Shown: positions 3,509 through 58,953 of the stretch, piece by piece
Position numbering within the stretch: the stretch's first letter is position 1
Layout: every line of letters starts with the position of its first letter
DNA from: a bacterium
Lineage (GTDB): Bacteria > Patescibacteriota > Gracilibacteria > UBA1369 > GCA-2718715
Direction of reading: 5' to 3'
DNA: 64,000 bases
Assembly (NCBI GenBank): GCA_018662325.1
Contig: JABJGM010000005.1
Coordinates: 1 to 64,000 of the forward strand
The notes under the pieces: model-generated
The model's input: the letters and a program-made list of their open reading frames with translations, nothing else
What the model was told of the DNA's origin: nothing
Databases searched by the model: none
Position numbers and translations under genes: made by a program

Positions 3509-4234
3509 TTAACTTTTTTTAAAAGGATGAAAAATCCGGGTTGCTAAAAAAGTGGGATAAGCAATAGCTTTATTTGTTATATTTATATATGGAGTTTTCG
3601 TAAATATCGAACCATTAAATTCTAAAACTTTATAAATTAAATAATGTTGAATTTGAATGATGAAATGGATTGCAGATTTAAATAAACTAGGTACTTTCTC
3701 TAGATTAAAAAGACCAGTATCCATTAGCTGAATTTCATTCTCTGGATTTAGTTTGAAATTAAATACTTTTAAGGATTCTGTTCTCGAGAAAAAATAACTA
3801 ATTAAACCTTTAGCTGCATCCGCTCCTAAAAAGTCAATAGCCTTATTTTCACTCAAGTAAAGTTCATTTGAAAGCTCTACATATTTTTTTAACTGACTAC
3901 AAATTACTGGGTCCGATAAGTTAAACTCTGATAAAATTGGCTGAGTATTAAATTCTTGTTCAATAACATAAGGAACAGATATAAAATGACCATTAACGCA
4001 AATACAAGCTGGATCTAAAATATTAGTATCTAAAGTTTGAATTCCTAATTCAGAAAGAATTTCTAGGTTTTCCTGCATTCCTAAGGCATCGTTAGAGTTC
4101 CAAAAGCAATCAGGATATTTATAAACATATTGACAATTATTTTTTGATTCACCTTCCAACAGGCATACATTATGTTCTGCACCAGAGGCAAAAGGCTTTT
4201 GAAGATTCAATATATCAGAAGAAAATTTATTCAT
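3509..4234 (-). CDS. Hypothetical protein, possibly kinase-like fold
   Basis: ORF; weak resemblance to aminoglycoside-phosphotransferase/kinase-like folds ('YVYKYP', 'IQLMDTGLF'). Assignment tentative. Confidence 0.4.
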   Translation of the reverse strand: MNKFSSDILNLQKPFASGAEHNVCLLEGESKNNCQYVYKYPDCFWNSNDALGMQENLEILSELGIQTLDTNILDPACICVNGHFISVPYVIEQEFNTQPILSEFNLSDPVICSQLKKYVELSNELYLSENKAIDFLGADAAKGLISYFFSRTESLKVFNFKLNPENEIQLMDTGLFNLEKVPSLFKSAIHFIIQIQHYLIYKVLEFNGSIFTKTPYINITNKAIAYPTFLATRIFHPFKKS

Positions 4235-4319
4235 AAAAAGGATTCAATTTCTAAAATTATAATTATCTAAAAAGCAAATTGCAAATTTTGAGAATTTAGT
4301 TTAAATTAAGAAAAAAACT

Positions 4320-6134
4320 ATGAATAAAAACATTCGAAATTTCTGTATTATTGCGCATATCGATCATGGTAAGTCTACACTTTCAGATCGTATGCTAGAA
4401 ATCACTTCAACTCTCTCAAAGTATGAAATGAAACATACACAAATGTTAGACACAATGGATATCGAACAAGAAAGAGGAATTACAATTAAACTCCAACCTG
4501 TGAGGATGGAGTACGAAATGAATAATGAAAATTTCATTCTAAATCTAATTGATACACCTGGACATGTAGATTTTTCATATGAGGTATCAAGATCTTTAGC
4601 TGCCTGTGAAGGTGCGATTTTAGTGGTTGATGCTTCTCAAGGAATCGAAGCCCAAACTCTTGCAAATGTTTATATGGCATTAGAACACGACCTAACAATA
4701 ATACCTGTATTAAATAAAATAGATCTACCAGCGGCAAATCCAGATAAAGTTGGAGATGAAATTGCAAATTTACTTGGATGTGATAAAGATGAAATCCTTC
4801 AAGTTTCTGCTAAAATGGGTACCAATGTGGAGCAATTGATTCAACAAGTAATAAAAGACATTCCAGCTCCTCCAGAAAAACCTGAAAATGAAGAAACAAA
4901 AGCCTTAGTCTTTGATTCAACTTACGATCCTTACAAAGGGGTTGTAGTTTTTGTAAGAGTATTCCAAGGTCAAATAAACAAAAAAGACAAACTAAGACTT
5001 TTAAACACCATCTCAGACTTCGAAGCTCTAGAAGTTGGTTACTTTAAACCCAAATACGAGCCAAGTGAGAGTCTTAAAGAAGGTGAAGTGGGCTACATTG
5101 TTACTGGATTTAAGTCTGTAGGTGAAGCCAGAGTTGGTGACACTGTATATAAAACTCAAAACAAAGAGAAATTCCCTATGGAAAAAGCAGAAGCCTTAAG
5201 TGGGTATGAAAAAGTTAAACCTTTTGTATTTGCATCAGTATTTTGTACTGAAGCTTCGGATTATCCATTACTTAGAACCGCTCTTGAAAAATTAAGTTTA
5301 AACGATAGTGCTGTAACTTACGAACCTGAACAATCAACCGCACTTGGAAATGGATTTAGATGTGGGTTTTTAGGACTTCTGCATTTAGATATCGTACAAG
5401 AAAGATTAGAAAGAGAATTTGACTTAGATCTAATTGTTACAGCTCCTTCTGTGTCTTACAAGGTAAATCTTTCAAATAACACTCAAGAGACTATTTCAAA
5501 CCCTTCACTACTTCCTGATCCAGCTAGAATTGAAGCAGTTTTAGAACCATGGGTAAAAGCTGAAATCTTAGTTCCAAACGACTACGTAGGTGCAGTTTTA
5601 GAGCTCTGCCAAGATAAAAGAGGTATTCAAAAAGATATCCAATATTTAGCAAAAGATAGAGTAATGATTGTAAATGAACTTCCACTTGCAAACATAGTTG
5701 TGGATTTTTATGACAGACTTAAAACAGTAACTTCAGGTTACGCCTCTTTTAGTTATGATTTCCTAGAATTTAGAATAGAAAACTTAGTAAAATTAGACAT
5801 TTTAATTGCTGGTTCAAAAATTGATGCCTTTTCATGTGTAATACATAGAACAGAAGCTCAAAATTTTGGATCTAAGCTTGTTAAAAAGCTAAAGAAACTA
5901 ATTCCAAGAGCTCAATTTGAAATCGCTCTACAAGCCGCAATAGGCTCAAGGGTAATTGCAAGAGAAACAATCTCAGCTTTAAGAAAAGATGTAACCGCTA
6001 AACTCTACGGAGGGGATAGAACAAGAAAAGACAAACTTTTAAAGAAACAGAAGAAAGGTAAGAAAAGATTAAAAATGCTAGGAAACGTAACAGTTCCACA
6101 AGAAGCATTCCTAGCTGTACTTAAAAAAGATTAA
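4320..6134 (+). CDS. lepA: Elongation factor 4 (LepA)
   Basis: 'NFCIIAHIDHGKSTLSDRMLE', G-domain motifs, and LepA C-terminal domain 'AKLYGGDRTRKDKLLKKQKKGKKRLK'. Confidence 0.97.
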   Translation: MNKNIRNFCIIAHIDHGKSTLSDRMLEITSTLSKYEMKHTQMLDTMDIEQERGITIKLQPVRMEYEMNNENFILNLIDTPGHVDFSYEVSRSLAACEGAILVVDASQGIEAQTLANVYMALEHDLTIIPVLNKIDLPAANPDKVGDEIANLLGCDKDEILQVSAKMGTNVEQLIQQVIKDIPAPPEKPENEETKALVFDSTYDPYKGVVVFVRVFQGQINKKDKLRLLNTISDFEALEVGYFKPKYEPSESLKEGEVGYIVTGFKSVGEARVGDTVYKTQNKEKFPMEKAEALSGYEKVKPFVFASVFCTEASDYPLLRTALEKLSLNDSAVTYEPEQSTALGNGFRCGFLGLLHLDIVQERLEREFDLDLIVTAPSVSYKVNLSNNTQETISNPSLLPDPARIEAVLEPWVKAEILVPNDYVGAVLELCQDKRGIQKDIQYLAKDRVMIVNELPLANIVVDFYDRLKTVTSGYASFSYDFLEFRIENLVKLDILIAGSKIDAFSCVIHRTEAQNFGSKLVKKLKKLIPRAQFEIALQAAIGSRVIARETISALRKDVTAKLYGGDRTRKDKLLKKQKKGKKRLKMLGNVTVPQEAFLAVLKKD

Positions 6135-6139
6135 ATTAA

Positions 6140-6166
6140 AAAGGACCAATCAAGGTCCTTTTTTTA
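6140..6166. terminator. Terminator between convergent lepA and P-type ATPase
   Basis: AAGGACC-aatcaa-GGTCCTTTTTTT. Confidence 0.85.
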
Positions 6167-6176
6167 TAATTAAAAT

Positions 6177-8711
6177 TTATGAGGTTTTGGTTTGCAACTT
6201 ATTGGTCCATGCAACAAGTGGCTGAACTAAAAAGGCAGTACTAGAAAGCAATAATATCATAGCCCACTGAGTTAAGTTTAAAGGAGTAGTCTTTAGGTAT
6301 TCTTGCATTACTGGATTATAAATCGCAAATAATTGAATACAGAATGAAAATACAACCGAAACATTTAACCAGAAGTTATCGAACATTTGTTTAATTTTTG
6401 GAACAAAATCAAACTTACATACGTAAACCAGCATTAATTCAAACATCACAATTTGCGTAAATACCATAGTTCTAGCTAAACTTTGAGAGTTCATGTCAAA
6501 GCTTGCTCCAAAAATGGATTGATCGATTTTTAGTCCGTAAAAATATACAGCTAAATTTGCAAATATCTGAAGGAAAACAGCAATTGATATAAATTTACCA
6601 AATTTCGACAGTAAAGACTCATTGGTAGCATGAGGTTTTTCATTCATTATAGATTTATCTCTTACAGTTTGACCCAAGGCTAAAGCTGGAAAGGCATCTG
6701 TTACTAGGTTAATAAATAGTACTTGCAAGGGAATGATAGGAAGAGGAAAACCCATTAAAGTCAAAATAGACACAGCTGCAATAGTATCAAAATTAGCAGA
6801 AAGTAAAAATTTCAAAAAGGAAATAATATTTTTATATATTTTACGACCTTCAAAAATTGCATTCACAATAGTAGAGAAATTATCATCCTGAAGCACAATA
6901 TCAGCCACTTCCTTAGTAGCTTCCGTTCCTTTAATACCCATAGCGACTCCAACATCAGCTTTTTTAAGTGCTGGAGCATCATTTACTCCATCTCCTGAGA
7001 CAGCCACAACTTCACCCATAGACTGGAGCAGACTTACAAGTCTAAACTTATGTTTTGGAGAGGTTCTGGCAAAAATATCAAATTCTTTTAAAGCTTTTTT
7101 TAACTCGTAATCTTTCATTTTATCAATTTTATCACCAGTTAAACCTTTTGGATTTACAAAACCAATTTTCCTAGCAACACTAAGGGCAGTTTCCAAGTTA
7201 TCTCCGGTAATAACTTTTACATCAATTGAAGCTTTTCTAACATCAACTAAAGATTGTTTAACACTTAATCTAGGTGGATCAATCATAGCAACTAAACCAA
7301 CTAAAACTAAATCTTCTTCAGTAATTGAGTCAGCTTTTTTATATGCAAGAGCTAATACTCTAAGTGCATTATTCGAATAATCTACAGATTTATTTTGGAT
7401 GACTTTTCTGTAATTTGCATCAATTGCAACTTCTTTCCCATTAACTAAAACATGCGAACATTTTTTAATAAGCATTTCTAGAGCACCTTTAGTGTAAACT
7501 TTTTTTCCGTCAAAAACCGACATCATTTTTCTACTAGATGAAAAAGCCATTTCATCAACAATTTTTAATTGTTCTGGTAGATCATATTTTGCTGATAGAA
7601 CCTTTAAGGCAATTTCGGTTGGATCACCTAAAATATTTGGTACAACCTGGGAGTTATTACAGGCATTACAAATTTGCAATAAAGAATGTAAATCTTTATT
7701 GGAGGTTTTAAGTTTAAAATTCTTAAAATTGTAACCCTCACCTGGAATTTCTAAATCTTTAGAAAAGGTAAAAACATTAGTTACCATCATTTCATTTTTA
7801 GTCAGCGTCCCAGTTTTATCAGTACAAATTACAGTTGTTGCGCCTAAGGTCTCAACTGATTTTAATTTTCTTACAATAGCTTTTTTACGACTCAAAGCCT
7901 GTACTCCAAAAGCTAAAGTTAAGGTTAAGATTACAGGTAAACCTTCTGGAATTGCAGATACTCCTAAACTCACAGAAGTCATAAACAAATCAATAACTTT
8001 AAAGTCTTTAAGATAACCAAGTAAAAAAACTAAAGATATAAGAGATAAAACAATAAAGCCAAGTTTCTTTGAAAGCTTATCAATTTGAATATCTAAAGGG
8101 GATGGGTCGTCTTGAGTTTCGTTTAATAGATTTACAATTTTTCCAAATTCAGTGTCTTTACCGGTCGCAAAAACCTCAGCATATCCATTCCCTGAGACAA
8201 CTAAGGTGCCCTTGAAAGTTCTAGATAAATCATCGAATTTAATATCTTTAGTAACAGGATTTGACTCTCCAGTTAATACAGCTTCATCTACTTTTAGATT
8301 ATAAACACTTAAAAGTTTGCAATCTGCAGGGATTTTATCTCCTTCGCTTAAATACAAAACATCTCCTGGAACCAAGTATTTAGTTTCAATCTCCTTTTTT
8401 ATACCATCTCTAATCACCACAGCTTTTGATTTTATCATACTCTTAAGTGATTCCACAGCTTTCTCAGCCTTGAATTCTTGAATGAAACCAACAACAGTAT
8501 TAATAACAACTACTATCAAAATAGCTATAGCATCCTTAGGATGGCCAATAATAAAAGACACACCACCTGCTAATACTAAAATCAGTACTAAGTAAGATTT
8601 TAACTGATCAAAGAGAATTCTTAGAATTTTAAAATCTTTCTTTTTAGGAATTTCATTTAAACCATAGATCTTAAGTCTTCTTGAAACTTCCTTGGAATTT
8701 AATCCTTGCAT
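6177..8711 (-). CDS. P-type cation-transporting ATPase (Ca2+-ATPase-like, P2 type)
   Basis: 'CTDKTGTLTKNEM' phosphorylation motif, 'TGES', 'VSGDGVNDAPALKKADVGVAMG'; 844 aa with cation_ATPase_N and C architecture. Confidence 0.93.
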   Translation of the reverse strand: MQGLNSKEVSRRLKIYGLNEIPKKKDFKILRILFDQLKSYLVLILVLAGGVSFIIGHPKDAIAILIVVVINTVVGFIQEFKAEKAVESLKSMIKSKAVVIRDGIKKEIETKYLVPGDVLYLSEGDKIPADCKLLSVYNLKVDEAVLTGESNPVTKDIKFDDLSRTFKGTLVVSGNGYAEVFATGKDTEFGKIVNLLNETQDDPSPLDIQIDKLSKKLGFIVLSLISLVFLLGYLKDFKVIDLFMTSVSLGVSAIPEGLPVILTLTLAFGVQALSRKKAIVRKLKSVETLGATTVICTDKTGTLTKNEMMVTNVFTFSKDLEIPGEGYNFKNFKLKTSNKDLHSLLQICNACNNSQVVPNILGDPTEIALKVLSAKYDLPEQLKIVDEMAFSSSRKMMSVFDGKKVYTKGALEMLIKKCSHVLVNGKEVAIDANYRKVIQNKSVDYSNNALRVLALAYKKADSITEEDLVLVGLVAMIDPPRLSVKQSLVDVRKASIDVKVITGDNLETALSVARKIGFVNPKGLTGDKIDKMKDYELKKALKEFDIFARTSPKHKFRLVSLLQSMGEVVAVSGDGVNDAPALKKADVGVAMGIKGTEATKEVADIVLQDDNFSTIVNAIFEGRKIYKNIISFLKFLLSANFDTIAAVSILTLMGFPLPIIPLQVLFINLVTDAFPALALGQTVRDKSIMNEKPHATNESLLSKFGKFISIAVFLQIFANLAVYFYGLKIDQSIFGASFDMNSQSLARTMVFTQIVMFELMLVYVCKFDFVPKIKQMFDNFWLNVSVVFSFCIQLFAIYNPVMQEYLKTTPLNLTQWAMILLLSSTAFLVQPLVAWTNKLQTKTS

Positions 8712-53768: not shown

Positions 53769-54791
53769 ATGGAACAAAAATTTGAAGCTTTAAACCAAAT
53801 TATCGATATTCTTAATGAAAAAGAACAAGAAGTTATCATTAAAAGATATGGATTCGATGATGGATATCCAAAAACATTACAGTTTGTTGGAGAAAATATG
53901 TATATAACTCGAGAAAGAGTAAGACAAATCCAAAAAAAAGCTTTACAAATTTTACGTAGAGTAGCAATGCAAACAGATACAAAAGAAATTGTAGAAATTG
54001 CTGAGGAAATCATAAAAGATAATAATAATGTAATCACAGAAAAGAAATTAATCGAATTATTAAAAGAAAGAGGCTATGAAAGTCATAGCATACCAAGCTT
54101 TAGACTTTGTTTGGATTTATCAGAAAAGGTTGAAACCATTAAAAAAACTCAACAACACAACAAGGGTTATATACTAAAAGACATAGTTAAAGCTGATACA
54201 GCCAAAGAAACTATAAAAAAAGCAATAGAGGAACTAAACAATGAAAAAATATCAGTGTGTAGAATTAAATTCGAAAACAATTTATTTGATAAAACAAAAG
54301 ACACACCAAAAGAATCAATATTAAGTATTCTTGAATTATCAACAGAGATAAAACAACTTGAAAACAGAATAGGGCTAAAAAGCTGGAGATGTGTAAACCC
54401 TAAAAGTATTAAAGATAAGTCTATACTTATTCTTAATTCAGCAAACAAACCACTCCACTTTAAAGACATATTTGATTTAATTCACGAAAAAAAATACGAT
54501 CACAAACAAGTTACAATCGAAGCGGTTCATAACGAATTAATTCGATACGAGGATTTTGTACTAGTAGGCAGAGGATTATACGCCTTGAAAGACTGGGGAT
54601 ATAAACCAGGAACTGTTAAAGACGTAATAAAAGAAATACTAAAAGAAAAAGGACCATTGAATAAAAAAGAGATTGTAAAAGAAGTATTAAAAAAGAGAGA
54701 TGTACAAGTAGGAACAATTTCACTAAACCTTCAAAAAACTCCAGAGTTTCTAAGGGTAGGTAGAGCAATATATAAACTAGAAGAAAAATAA
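53769..54791 (+). CDS. Sigma-70 region 4-like HTH protein with HARE-HTH-like repeats
   Basis: 'LNEKEQEVIIKRYGFDDGYPKTLQFVGENMYITRERVRQIQKKALQILRR' is sigma4-like; 'ILNSANKPLHFKDIFDLIHEKKYDHKQVTIEAVHNELIRYEDFVLVGRGLYALKDWGY' is HARE-HTH-like; a similar motif follows at the C-terminus. Confidence 0.85.
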   Translation: MEQKFEALNQIIDILNEKEQEVIIKRYGFDDGYPKTLQFVGENMYITRERVRQIQKKALQILRRVAMQTDTKEIVEIAEEIIKDNNNVITEKKLIELLKERGYESHSIPSFRLCLDLSEKVETIKKTQQHNKGYILKDIVKADTAKETIKKAIEELNNEKISVCRIKFENNLFDKTKDTPKESILSILELSTEIKQLENRIGLKSWRCVNPKSIKDKSILILNSANKPLHFKDIFDLIHEKKYDHKQVTIEAVHNELIRYEDFVLVGRGLYALKDWGYKPGTVKDVIKEILKEKGPLNKKEIVKEVLKKRDVQVGTISLNLQKTPEFLRVGRAIYKLEEK

Positions 54792-54824: not shown

Positions 54825-55168
54825 ATTTTGGCATACATTTCCAATATTTCATCATCATTAATTGAATTTTGATTTAAAAACAACAGATTGAGAGATGATA
54901 ATAAAATTCGACAATTCTCAATTTTTTCAAGATCAGAAAGTTCGAAAAGAAGCTTTGAATAATATCTTTGTTTCTTCTCTAAAATTTTAATAAACTTATT
55001 TCTGTCAAACTCTTTTTTCTTTTTTTTGAAACCTAAAACCGGTGGAAGAGGAAGTTTCTTAGCAATTTTATTAAGATCTTTAGTTAACATATTCCTAAAG
55101 GAACCTAAGAGTGATTGATTTTTAACTAACTTATCCTTAGAATTATCTCGTTGTAAGCTTTGACTCAT
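54809..55168 (-). CDS. Hypothetical basic protein (ORF extends to 55312; start at 55168 preferred)
   Basis: Internal ATG at 55168 avoids a long overlap with the divergent gene; Lys-rich; no family recognised. Confidence 0.5.
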   Translation of the reverse strand: MSQSLQRDNSKDKLVKNQSLLGSFRNMLTKDLNKIAKKLPLPPVLGFKKKKKEFDRNKFIKILEKKQRYYSKLLFELSDLEKIENCRILLSSLNLLFLNQNSINDDEILEMYAKIKKGL

Positions 55169-56621
55169 GAAAAAAATATTAAAAATTGTATTACTTTGCA
55201 TTCTTAACATACTAATTTTAAATGCATCAGCAGAAAATGTCCAGGTTGATAAATTTGGATTTAAAGACAAACCACTAATCTTCAAAATATCCGAGGAATA
55301 TCCAGAAAACACAAAAGTTAATTGGGATTTTGGTGATAATAATAAAGAAACAGGTAGAGAAGTAATTCATAGATACAATAATCTTGGAGAATTCAATGTT
55401 AAAACAACTATTCAAAATAATACATTTAAAGAAGAAAGTGCAAAAAAAATAAAAGTAGTAGAAGAATCAGGGATATTTATAAATAACATAAAAGAAAAAC
55501 AATTTAACGCGTTAGATAAGTTTGCGAATTTAAACGATTTTCACTTAGAAAGGTTATCAAATTCAAGTGTAAAAAATAGCACAATTAAAAATCTTGAAAT
55601 TAAGAGCAAAATTGAAGACCTAGAACTGGATAAATTTAAATATTTAATTATATGGTCAAACAACGCAAATGACTTAGATTTTATTTACTCATTAGATGAA
55701 TCAAAAAGAGAAAAGATTTTAGATAAAAATTTAATCTTCATAACAGATGACATTTCTAATATCTATCTTCAAAGAAAAATAAACAATCTAAAATTTAAAA
55801 ATTCATTAATTGCTGGAAAAGAAATTCTATATGATTTAATCGAAATAAAAAAATATGATAGTTTCCTTAAATATATAATACAAAGAGAATATAATTTTAT
55901 AAATCTTGATAAAGATCTTTTGTTAAAAAAACCATATCTTGTACTTACATTGTTAACCGATTCATTAATTGACTCCGGATTAAATCCAGAAATTCTTTAT
56001 ATAATATTACTACTTCCAATTTTATTTGGATTTATGAGTATAGCTAATAATTTTATTGGAATAAGATTTTTAAATAAATTTAGTCTTATTACATTCGTAA
56101 TAGGTAGTATAGTTGGGAGTATTGAAATCATGTTGTTATTTTATACAATTGCAATAGCACAATCCCTTGTGAATAAGATTACTATTGATAAATTAAATCT
56201 ACTAAAGATTCCAAAAGAAAACTTAAACTTAGGTATTTATATAATCATTTCTTTGTTAACAATATTTGCTCTGAAATACTTTAATCTTATTGACGGAAAT
56301 CAAATAAATTCATATGCAATGAGTTTAATAATCGGATGTTTTGGAATTATTCACGTCTTTAGACAATTATCAAATAGAAAATTATTAAAAAATTTAAAAG
56401 TAATATTAGCAAACCTTTTCGCATGGATGTTAATATCTGGTTATCTTGGAGGACATAACTCATTAATTTCGAACAATATTGAAATCAAACAAAAAATATT
56501 AAACAATCCTGAAATAATTATATTTTTTATTTTAATAAATATTTTAGCGATGATTTACTCTGGTCTTAGAGTAACTGAATATATAACTTACAAAAAAATA
56601 TATGAAAATTTGGAAGAATAG
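55167..56621 (+). CDS. PKD-domain plus multi-TM (7TM) membrane protein
   Basis: Signal peptide; PKD motif 'NTKVNWDFGDNNKETGREVIHRYNNLGEFNVKTTI'; C-terminal array of TM helices; 1 nt before the ATP-grasp gene. Confidence 0.8.
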   Translation: MKKILKIVLLCILNILILNASAENVQVDKFGFKDKPLIFKISEEYPENTKVNWDFGDNNKETGREVIHRYNNLGEFNVKTTIQNNTFKEESAKKIKVVEESGIFINNIKEKQFNALDKFANLNDFHLERLSNSSVKNSTIKNLEIKSKIEDLELDKFKYLIIWSNNANDLDFIYSLDESKREKILDKNLIFITDDISNIYLQRKINNLKFKNSLIAGKEILYDLIEIKKYDSFLKYIIQREYNFINLDKDLLLKKPYLVLTLLTDSLIDSGLNPEILYIILLLPILFGFMSIANNFIGIRFLNKFSLITFVIGSIVGSIEIMLLFYTIAIAQSLVNKITIDKLNLLKIPKENLNLGIYIIISLLTIFALKYFNLIDGNQINSYAMSLIIGCFGIIHVFRQLSNRKLLKNLKVILANLFAWMLISGYLGGHNSLISNNIEIKQKILNNPEIIIFFILINILAMIYSGLRVTEYITYKKIYENLEE

Positions 56622-56622
56622 T

Positions 56623-58953
56623 ATGCTAAGTAAAAACTATAGAAACTTAAAGCTTCAAGTCTACAATGAAAAAGAGGCAATAAATTTTGCAAACAATAAG
56701 TTAAAAACAAAACATTTCTTTTCTGTAAGAGGAATTCCAGTACCAAAACTTATGGGGATTTTCAAAAATAGAGAAGATGTTAATAAATTTGATTTTGCTA
56801 ATCTTAATAAAGATTTTGTCATAAAACCAAATCAGGGTGCAGAAGGAAAAGGAATAATACCATTCAAAGAAAGAAAAGGTGATAAGTTTATAACTATTTC
56901 AAATAAAGAGCTTACAACTAATGAATTAAAAAATCATATAATTAACATAACACAAGGTATTTATAACAACGGAAATAAAGATACAGCTTTTTTCGAACAA
57001 AGAATCAAAAATAGCCCAGAGTTAGAAGAAATCACCTACAAAGGACTTCCCGATGTAAGGGTTATTTGTTTTAATCAAATACCTGTAATGGCCATGTTAA
57101 GGGTTCCCACAAAAGAGTCAGATGGTAGAGCGAATCTTGCAGAAAATGCAATGGCAATTGGAATAAATTTGTCGAACGGGGAGCCAAGCTATTATTACTA
57201 CAATGGAAAAATAACTAAAAAAGACCCATTAAACAAAAACTCAATAAAAAGAGTACCTAATTTTATAAGGGTTCTACAGATAGCTGTTAAATGCTCTCAG
57301 CTGAGCAAACTTAAGCTTGCGGGGTGTGATATAGCATTTAATGAAAAAAACGAACCATGCTTGATAGAAATCAATGCTAGACCAGGTTTGAAAATTCAAC
57401 TAGCTAACAAAGACAGCCTAAAAGAAAGAATAAACAAAATCAAAGACTTAAAACCTAAATCAATTAATGAATCAATTGAAATTGCTATGTCGATCTTTGG
57501 TGATAGTTATAAGAAATTAGAATTTGAAAAAGAAAAAATCATAGGACTAGAAGAGAAAATAAAAATATTTAATGATCAAAAAATATTTATAGCGGATTGC
57601 AATATAAAACTATCTAACGATCAAAACTTTATAGATGAAGATTTACTTAGAAAAATGAATATAGGCGACAAAAAAAATCATACATTTAAAATAAGTCTAA
57701 AAGATGATACTCAAAACCTTGTTTTTTATAAATCTAAATTACAGGATTACGATATTTTACTAGGTAAAAATGCAGTACAAAACTTTTTAATAGATCCTAA
57801 GAAAATCAAACAAACAAAATTACCAAAATATAAAGCAACAAAAAACACAGCGTATATAACAAATATTCACAATTACGGAGAAATCGATCATGAAATTCAT
57901 GAAGTAGTAAAACAACTTGGTTTTAATAAAAAACTACAACCAATAAATTACATAGAAGAAGTTCAAAAATTCAAATTAGATCCAAATTCGAACCCAAAAT
58001 TCACCTATGAAGATCACACTGACCTAATTTATAAACTTGAAAACAAGATAGAAAAAATTAAAATTCCAGACACTAAAATAGGAAAAATATTTCAAGATAA
58101 AACTAAGGAGATAAAGCTAATGTTAAAATGTTTAGAATTCTTAGGTACTTCAGAGTTCACAAGCCATTTCTCTAAACTAACTCCAATCGTTCAAGAAAGT
58201 GAATCACTAAAAGCAAAACTTTATTTAGAAAATGATATAAAACCATTATTAAATTCAGGTAAAAAATATAATCAAAAAGAATTCATAAAATTATTTCAAG
58301 AAGTTTTAGATAAATATAAATTAAATTATAAAATTGAATTAGATAAAAACACATTAACAAGAATGAAAGTAACATCTAAGAAGAAAATTAAAATAAATGC
58401 TAACACACAAAAACTAACTGAAAACCAAGTAAAAAAACTAATTGCTCATGAAATTGAAACACATGCAATAACTTATCAAAATGGAAATCAACAACCATAT
58501 AAAATATTTAATTATGGTTTTGCAAACTATATAGAACTCCAAGAGGGATTAGCAATTTACAACCAAGAAAAAAAATTAGGAATTAAACATAATTATTTTG
58601 CTGCAAACAATTTCATAGGGAACAAAGTTGTATTAGAAAATTCATTTAAAGATGCATACGAAATTTTAAAAGAACAAAATATAATTAAAAATCCAATAAA
58701 TTTTATAGCAAGATGTAAAAAAGGGATTTCAAACACAAAGTTTAAAGGAGGAAACACAAAACAATTAGTCTATTTCAGAGGAGCATTAAAAGTCAGAGAT
58801 TTAATCGAAAGAAATCCAAATATAATAAAAATTCTATACTTAGGAAAAATTAATTTCAGCAGCATTCCAACATTAAAAAAAGCAGATTTTATAAATCAGA
58901 GAATAATTTTGCCAGAATTTTTAATCAACAAAGAAGAATCACCGAAGGAATAA
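56623..58953 (+). CDS. RimK-related ATP-grasp ligase, degenerate retropepsin-like segment and DUF1704/QEGLA HExxxH peptidase fusion (ORF from 56602)
   Basis: ATP-grasp 'LKTKHFFSVRGIPVPKLMGIF...FVIKPNQGAEGKGI...GCDIAFNEKNEPCLIEINARPGL'; middle 'DYDILLGKNAVQNFLIDP'; C-term 'HEIETHAITYQNGNQQPYKIF...ELQEGLAIYNQEK'. Confidence 0.85.
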   Translation: MLSKNYRNLKLQVYNEKEAINFANNKLKTKHFFSVRGIPVPKLMGIFKNREDVNKFDFANLNKDFVIKPNQGAEGKGIIPFKERKGDKFITISNKELTTNELKNHIINITQGIYNNGNKDTAFFEQRIKNSPELEEITYKGLPDVRVICFNQIPVMAMLRVPTKESDGRANLAENAMAIGINLSNGEPSYYYYNGKITKKDPLNKNSIKRVPNFIRVLQIAVKCSQLSKLKLAGCDIAFNEKNEPCLIEINARPGLKIQLANKDSLKERINKIKDLKPKSINESIEIAMSIFGDSYKKLEFEKEKIIGLEEKIKIFNDQKIFIADCNIKLSNDQNFIDEDLLRKMNIGDKKNHTFKISLKDDTQNLVFYKSKLQDYDILLGKNAVQNFLIDPKKIKQTKLPKYKATKNTAYITNIHNYGEIDHEIHEVVKQLGFNKKLQPINYIEEVQKFKLDPNSNPKFTYEDHTDLIYKLENKIEKIKIPDTKIGKIFQDKTKEIKLMLKCLEFLGTSEFTSHFSKLTPIVQESESLKAKLYLENDIKPLLNSGKKYNQKEFIKLFQEVLDKYKLNYKIELDKNTLTRMKVTSKKKIKINANTQKLTENQVKKLIAHEIETHAITYQNGNQQPYKIFNYGFANYIELQEGLAIYNQEKKLGIKHNYFAANNFIGNKVVLENSFKDAYEILKEQNIIKNPINFIARCKKGISNTKFKGGNTKQLVYFRGALKVRDLIERNPNIIKILYLGKINFSSIPTLKKADFINQRIILPEFLINKEESPKE

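Follow-up and report, generated by a model that had tools for sequence, protein, structure and literature searches.

In Pseudomonas aeruginosa, the rloABC operon has the gene order rloA-rloB-rloC and codes for a retropepsin (RloA), an inactive-transglutaminase 7TM protein (RloB) and an ATP-grasp protein (RloC); RloA cleaves polyglutamate, and rloA mutants are rescued by rloB/rloC deletions (PMC12239564). RimK attaches Glu to the C-terminus of a protein and makes free poly-alpha-glutamate, the latter stimulated by RimB, which also removes the added Glu and stimulates RimK (PMC11957791). The tubulin carboxypeptidases MATCAP/TMCP (KIAA0895L) cleave off C-terminal residues adjacent to Glu and trim polyglutamate; they need a penultimate Glu in tubulin tails, and were reported inactive on an EEEY variant (PMC10499314). 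In the literature examined, neither RloC/RloB nor the bacterial QEGLA/MATCAP proteins had an established substrate. Amidoligase neighbourhoods of this sort are reportedly treated by Iyer et al. 2009, according to later papers.

The locus described here lies on the forward strand of the window, a stretch of 64,000 nucleotides of contig JABJGM010000005.1 (GenBank assembly GCA_018662325.1), and comprises a gene for a three-part fusion protein preceded by a gene for an RloB-like 7TM protein. As the latter is directly upstream of the fusion, the locus is, by sequence comparison, related in rearranged form to the gammaproteobacterial rloABC operon, of which the canonical rloA-rloB-rloC order was also found in Aeromonas (matches to NCBIfam RloA, RloB and TIGR02291). 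Shared with rloABC are an RloC-type ligase (33% identity to Aeromonas RloC over 303 aa, E 2e-46), an RloB-type 7TM protein and an RloA/RimB-type fold. Unlike in rloABC, the retropepsin is cytosolic, joined to the ligase and catalytically dead, a MATCAP domain is present at the C-terminus, and the 7TM partner has a PKD-type rather than a transglutaminase-like ectodomain and a tail ending in Glu-Glu. Since the transglutaminase ectodomain and an active secreted RloA are absent, the locus was classed as an Rlo-kind variant and not as a canonical rlo operon.

With RimB-RimK and the RimBK hybrid (PMC11957791) the locus has in common a ligase and a retropepsin in one system (in the hybrid, in one chain) and a putative writer-eraser logic, but in the fusion the ligase precedes the retropepsin, the catalytic Asp is missing and there is a 7TM partner, and bS6 is an implausible target. 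The C-terminal domain has the fold, the HExxxH + EGLA zinc site and the KRG...DTS.PG.F.KD block of the MATCAP/TMCP enzymes; unlike the KIAA0895L enzymes it is bacterial and ligase-fused, and its substrate is a proposed one. It also matches the TIGR02421 'flavohemoglobin expression-modulating QEGLA motif' proteins, as part of a fusion and not as a stand-alone protein. The tubulin tyrosination cycle (TTL as writer, MATCAP as detyrosinase) offers an analogy only: an ATP-grasp writer, a MATCAP eraser and a Glu-Glu tail are parallels, whereas here writer and eraser are in one chain, the target is presumed to be a membrane protein and the similarity to TTL is only marginal. A literature search of partial coverage turned up no report of the fusion, of the Glu-Glu tail or of RloB-like partners in Patescibacteria; in the first-pass annotation of this DNA the fusion was noted as possibly undescribed.

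The fusion protein and its domains

A single uninterrupted reading frame on the + strand, from 56602 to 58953, codes for ligase, dead retropepsin and metallocarboxypeptidase in one chain of 783 aa, or of 776 aa from an internal ATG at 56623, which has GGAAGA six bases 5' of it. With a start at 56602 the frame overlaps the upstream 7TM ORF by 20 nt. This start was considered at least as likely as 56623, because L002, a relative with 91% identity, codes for Ile where the window has this ATG, and the N-termini of homologues are ~8-10 residues longer than from that ATG. Residue numbers below are counted from 56623. An AlphaFold2 model of the fusion (41 homologues) had a mean pLDDT of 86.9, with well-folded parts at residues 12-293, 305-392 and 418-770; its pTM of 0.51 indicates that the single parts are reliable and their relative placement undefined. 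A signal peptide was predicted to be absent. Of 59 related genomes, 38 have the complete fusion and two more have it broken across contig ends, so it is not an assembly artefact. An assembly error or frameshift joining two genes, which had been a doubt at first pass, was ruled out by full-length homologues in many independent genomes; the single chain of three domains claimed there was borne out by the open frame, Pfam, the folds and these homologues.

The ATP-grasp ligase domain, of RloC/TIGR02291 type, was placed at 56656-57501 (+ strand, residues 12-293), with a Pfam match to ATPgrasp_ST (PF14397) over residues 12-274 (E 1.2e-57). The TIGR02291 score of the fusion was 208 bits, as compared with an equivalog cut-off of 314 and 470 for Aeromonas RloC. 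When the fusion model was searched with Foldseek, RimK (5zct, 5e-9) ranked second to human MATCAP. The ATP-grasp catalytic residues K68, E125, R146, D236, E249 and N251 were invariant in 41 homologues, and by these residues the ligase active site is intact. The description of this part as a RimK-related ligase held for the ATP-grasp identity and the RimK-like fold; the system nearest to it is the rlo operon (RloC), not stand-alone RimK.

The middle segment (57535-57798, + strand, residues 305-392) was assigned to a degenerate retropepsin fold of RloA/RimB type by profile comparison and fold. It had no direct Pfam match, PF05618 included, and no other PF05618 match was found in a Pfam search of the window's genome. 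The retropepsin identity of the fused segment comes from an intermediate unfused family together with the predicted fold: fused segments matched those of DTG-bearing unfused relatives in profile comparison (E 4e-24), and the unfused segments matched PF05618 above the cut-off and Aeromonas RloA at E 3.5e-10. Compared directly with Aeromonas RloA, the fused segments gave a weak profile match (E 0.028). The segment modelled alone had a pLDDT of 90, with DDI1 RVP (3s8i) and Pseudomonas RloA (9g58) as best PDB matches, from an alignment that included DTG-bearing relatives and may have been helped by them. On alignment with DTG-bearing relatives, K-L-S (57607-57615, + strand) replaces the catalytic D-T-G triad. 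A K-x-V-R-S-A-L-G-x-E-x-R-P segment after the active-site strand, probably the flap, was conserved in the compared unfused relatives and absent from the fused ones. Given K-L-S in the window and the loss of D-T/S-G in 33 of 36 fusions, the segment is judged to be a retropepsin fold and not an active aspartic protease, as had been supposed from the missing catalytic motif.

The MATCAP/QEGLA (PF08014) metallocarboxypeptidase domain extends from 57874 to 58932 (+ strand, residues 418-770). PF08014 was matched over residues 455-754 (E 6.7e-34, 117.9 bits against a gathering score of 27); the TIGR02421 score of 125 bits was far below the curated cut-off, with a match spanning nearly the full model length. 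A family profile matched human MATCAP (7z5g) at E 9.9e-27 (hmmsearch), and the same structure ranked first for the fusion model in Foldseek (E 2e-10); both the ATP-grasp and the MATCAP (DUF1704) folds were thus recovered by structure prediction, the check proposed at first pass. The zinc-binding/catalytic motif HEIETH (58447-58464, + strand, residues 609-614) aligns with HEIGTH of human MATCAP, and QEGLA (58540-58554, + strand), with the third zinc ligand E641, aligns with EEGLA; the coordinates first given for both motifs agree with the sequence. H609, E610, H614 and E641 were invariant in 41 homologues. The HExxxH+E site is intact, and carboxypeptidase activity is predicted.

The 7TM partner and its Glu-Glu tail

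The RloB-like 7TM partner (55167-56621, + strand), identified from a PKD match and family alignment, has a signal peptide (4-22), a PKD-type ectodomain (33-91), about seven TM helices (275-467) and a short cytosolic tail that is basic apart from its last residues. The window's protein itself matches only PKD, and the RloB-like assignment rests on alignment: 15 of 17 aligned homologues matched 7TM_transglut (PF14402, the 7TM part of RloB; best 3.9e-35), and the family matched Aeromonas RloB at E 8.7e-18 (hhalign). Hydropathy and positive-inside charge place its C-terminus in the cytosol, where the fusion protein, lacking a signal peptide, is also predicted to be. Further upstream in the window, an ORF at 53769-54791 combines sigma-70 region 4, HARE-HTH and further winged-helix-like segments.

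The gene ends in two Glu codons, GAA GAA (56613-56618, + strand), which code for a candidate acceptor or substrate tail; the C-terminus reads ...YKKIYENLEE. In the 17-member alignment, with ~20% identity to the window protein, 13 columns are invariant, and these include the terminal EE. Among distinct systems, the 7TM tail was Glu-Glu in 60 of 64 fused and 4 of 58 unfused; the background in other neighbouring ORFs of >=250 aa was 7/918 (0.8%). Three of the four unfused EE systems (L172, L175, L181) have an adjacent MATCAP gene and an Asp-to-Asn dead protease. Of the fused exceptions, one partner (L016) ends in KQN and three (L003, L185, L186) in a single Glu. In a hold-out of twenty further loci, EE was found in two systems with adjacent MATCAP (G402, G360), which have N-T-G / N-T-S at the motif, and in three new fusions that have the 7TM gene next to them; none of the unlinked systems had it. 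The first-pass annotation lacked this locus context, and the upstream RloB-like gene ending in Glu-Glu now supplies its proposed ligase and peptidase with a candidate substrate.

Distribution of the fusion and loss of the protease motif

The search covered part of all Patescibacteria genomes. The fusion was present in at least 80 genome records, mostly named Peregrinibacteria, Peribacteria or Gracilibacteria, which agrees with the CPR origin suggested from the sequence; a few families that do not belong to the class have it as well. A large clade has the fusion as a fixed trait, and the same parts also occur as adjacent separate genes: other Patescibacteria had ligase and retropepsin without MATCAP, or with MATCAP as the next gene. 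In 80 regions fetched across Patescibacteria, a 7TM gene preceded nearly every ligase gene, and members of the order without the fusion were also without the 7TM gene, PKD-repeat matches aside. One contig labelled Nitrospirota (L043, JAUVQE010000042.1) carried a full Peregrinibacteria-type fusion and is probably a binning error. In two genomes the fusion or ligase gene was in two overlapping or neighbouring frames, from frameshift or sequencing error (L188, G161, 5261-7655; L127, G068, 4120-5505). Two ligase-retropepsin proteins (L161:3911-6673 and L153:3218-5779) had ~400 additional C-terminal residues, which in L161 include a second ATP-grasp domain match (PF02655, 594-774).

Counted over 97 ligase rows, D-T/S-G was lost in 33/36 fusions, in 3/7 systems with MATCAP within 100 bp and in 0/54 others; Fisher tests on such raw counts ignore relatedness. 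The Asp itself was kept in 15/36 fusions, mostly without the rest of the motif, and DTG or DSG was retained in four (L020, L196, L197, L222). In the adjacent-MATCAP lineage with a lost motif the change was Asp to Asn. On the ligase tree, 11 losses were inferred, of which one fell in an adjacent-MATCAP lineage and the other ten in fused ones; unlinked branches had none over a length of 23 substitutions per site, that of the fused branches being 15 (p about 1e-4, conditional on the tree, the rooting and the irreversibility of motif loss). MATCAP linkage with a dead protease had about three independent origins, a number of lineages with which tree-aware pair tests cannot reach significance. In three systems (L121, L144, L183) MATCAP directly follows the ligase-retropepsin gene on the same strand, DTG is intact and the 7TM tail is without EE; these are perhaps an intermediate state with two erasers. 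The association is striking and built on few independent events, and suggests that DTG loss follows linkage of MATCAP, an eraser swap in which one protease class gives way to another.

Proposed mechanism and alternatives

We put at about even chances that this is a Patescibacterial version of Rlo in which the ligase would extend, and the fusion-borne MATCAP would trim, the Glu-Glu tail of the 7TM partner, as suggested by the sequences and by analogy with the systems above. The cytosolic RloC-like ligase would lengthen the partner's C-terminus by at least one amino acid, glutamate being the most likely. In ordinary Patescibacterial Rlo systems the eraser would be the retropepsin domain fused to the ligase; in the window's lineage the fused-on MATCAP would have taken over erasing and would trim the tail back to -Glu-Glu. 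The retropepsin fold would persist in a non-catalytic role, perhaps as a linker or as a regulator of the ligase (as RimB for RimK). The 7TM ectodomain would sense an envelope signal, with tail length as readout. The added residue, the substrate, the direction and the physiological role of such a tail cycle are what we infer. More tentative is the fuller claim of a prokaryotic counterpart to the tubulin tyrosination/glutamylation cycle, in which one and the same chain would both attach a C-terminal amino-acid tag to the Glu-Glu tail of a membrane protein and take it off again, MATCAP having replaced an aspartic protease as eraser in an Rlo-type system. The combined writer-eraser put forward at first pass is still the best reading. 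Since MATCAP/TMCP are reported to be inactive on EEEY, the specificity of the bacterial MATCAP must differ or be looser if it trims the tail.

On a Halobacterium sp. DL1 plasmid, one 584-aa protein (L202:3164-4918) consists of an RloB-like 7TM part and a TIGR02291-like ligase; it has no retropepsin, and transposase genes lie a short way upstream. As its 7TM C-terminus is fused to the ligase, a free 7TM tail cannot serve as acceptor in all Rlo-like systems.

Alternatively, the fusion may make and trim a free small peptide or polyglutamate, which the 7TM partner would sense or export. Small peptides are frequent products of ATP-grasp ligases, RimK makes free poly-alpha-glutamate with stimulation by RimB (PMC11957791), and many Rlo-like systems are without an EE tail; we nevertheless regard this as unlikely, as it leaves unexplained why the 7TM tail is Glu-Glu only where MATCAP is linked. 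We consider it distinctly unlikely that the Glu-Glu tail binds MATCAP as a docking or auto-inhibitory ligand, recruiting the soluble fusion to the membrane while the real substrate is another protein. The short tail, basic apart from EE, and the preference of MATCAP-family carboxypeptidases for Glu next to the C-terminus (PMC10499314) are consistent with docking, but docking by itself leaves the ligase unexplained; no other candidate substrate was found.

The Glu-Glu codons might act as a Shine-Dalgarno-like signal for the downstream gene, with no role at the protein level and with DTG loss as lineage drift; the GGAAGA before ATG 56623 and the mostly short intergenic gaps would fit. Where the gap between the 7TM and ligase genes was >=15 nt, EE was nevertheless present in 19/20 fused and 1/12 unfused systems, unfused systems with equally short gaps were without EE, and in two genomes with the 7TM gene far from the fusion gene (G384 and G419; L205, L207) the tails still ended in GEE / TEE. 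EE at long gaps and at non-adjacent 7TM genes means that the ribosome-binding-site account of EE fails, and this explanation is very improbable. Least credible, despite the fold similarity of the ligase to RimK, is ribosomal protein bS6 as target, as for RimK/RimB: the bS6 C-termini of relatives are mostly ...D-I-x-L without Glu-Glu, bS6 is in one frame with bS18 in the window's genome so that its C-terminus is not free, and the fusion locus has an RloB-like partner gene, which RimB/RimK loci do not. This single bS6-bS18 open frame, of ~208 aa, was seen in the window's genome (L243, G000:C5:145358-145630) and in a congener (L241, G001), and is an apparent ribosomal protein fusion.

Implications

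Together, the MATCAP linkage, the dead retropepsin and the Glu-Glu tail name a specific and easily synthesised candidate substrate, by which an orphan stress-tolerance operon becomes a testable writer/eraser system. If the proposed tail cycle holds, one protease class would have given way to another within a conserved machine, and the locus would give a bacterial context to the carboxypeptidase from which a tubulin-modifying enzyme arose.
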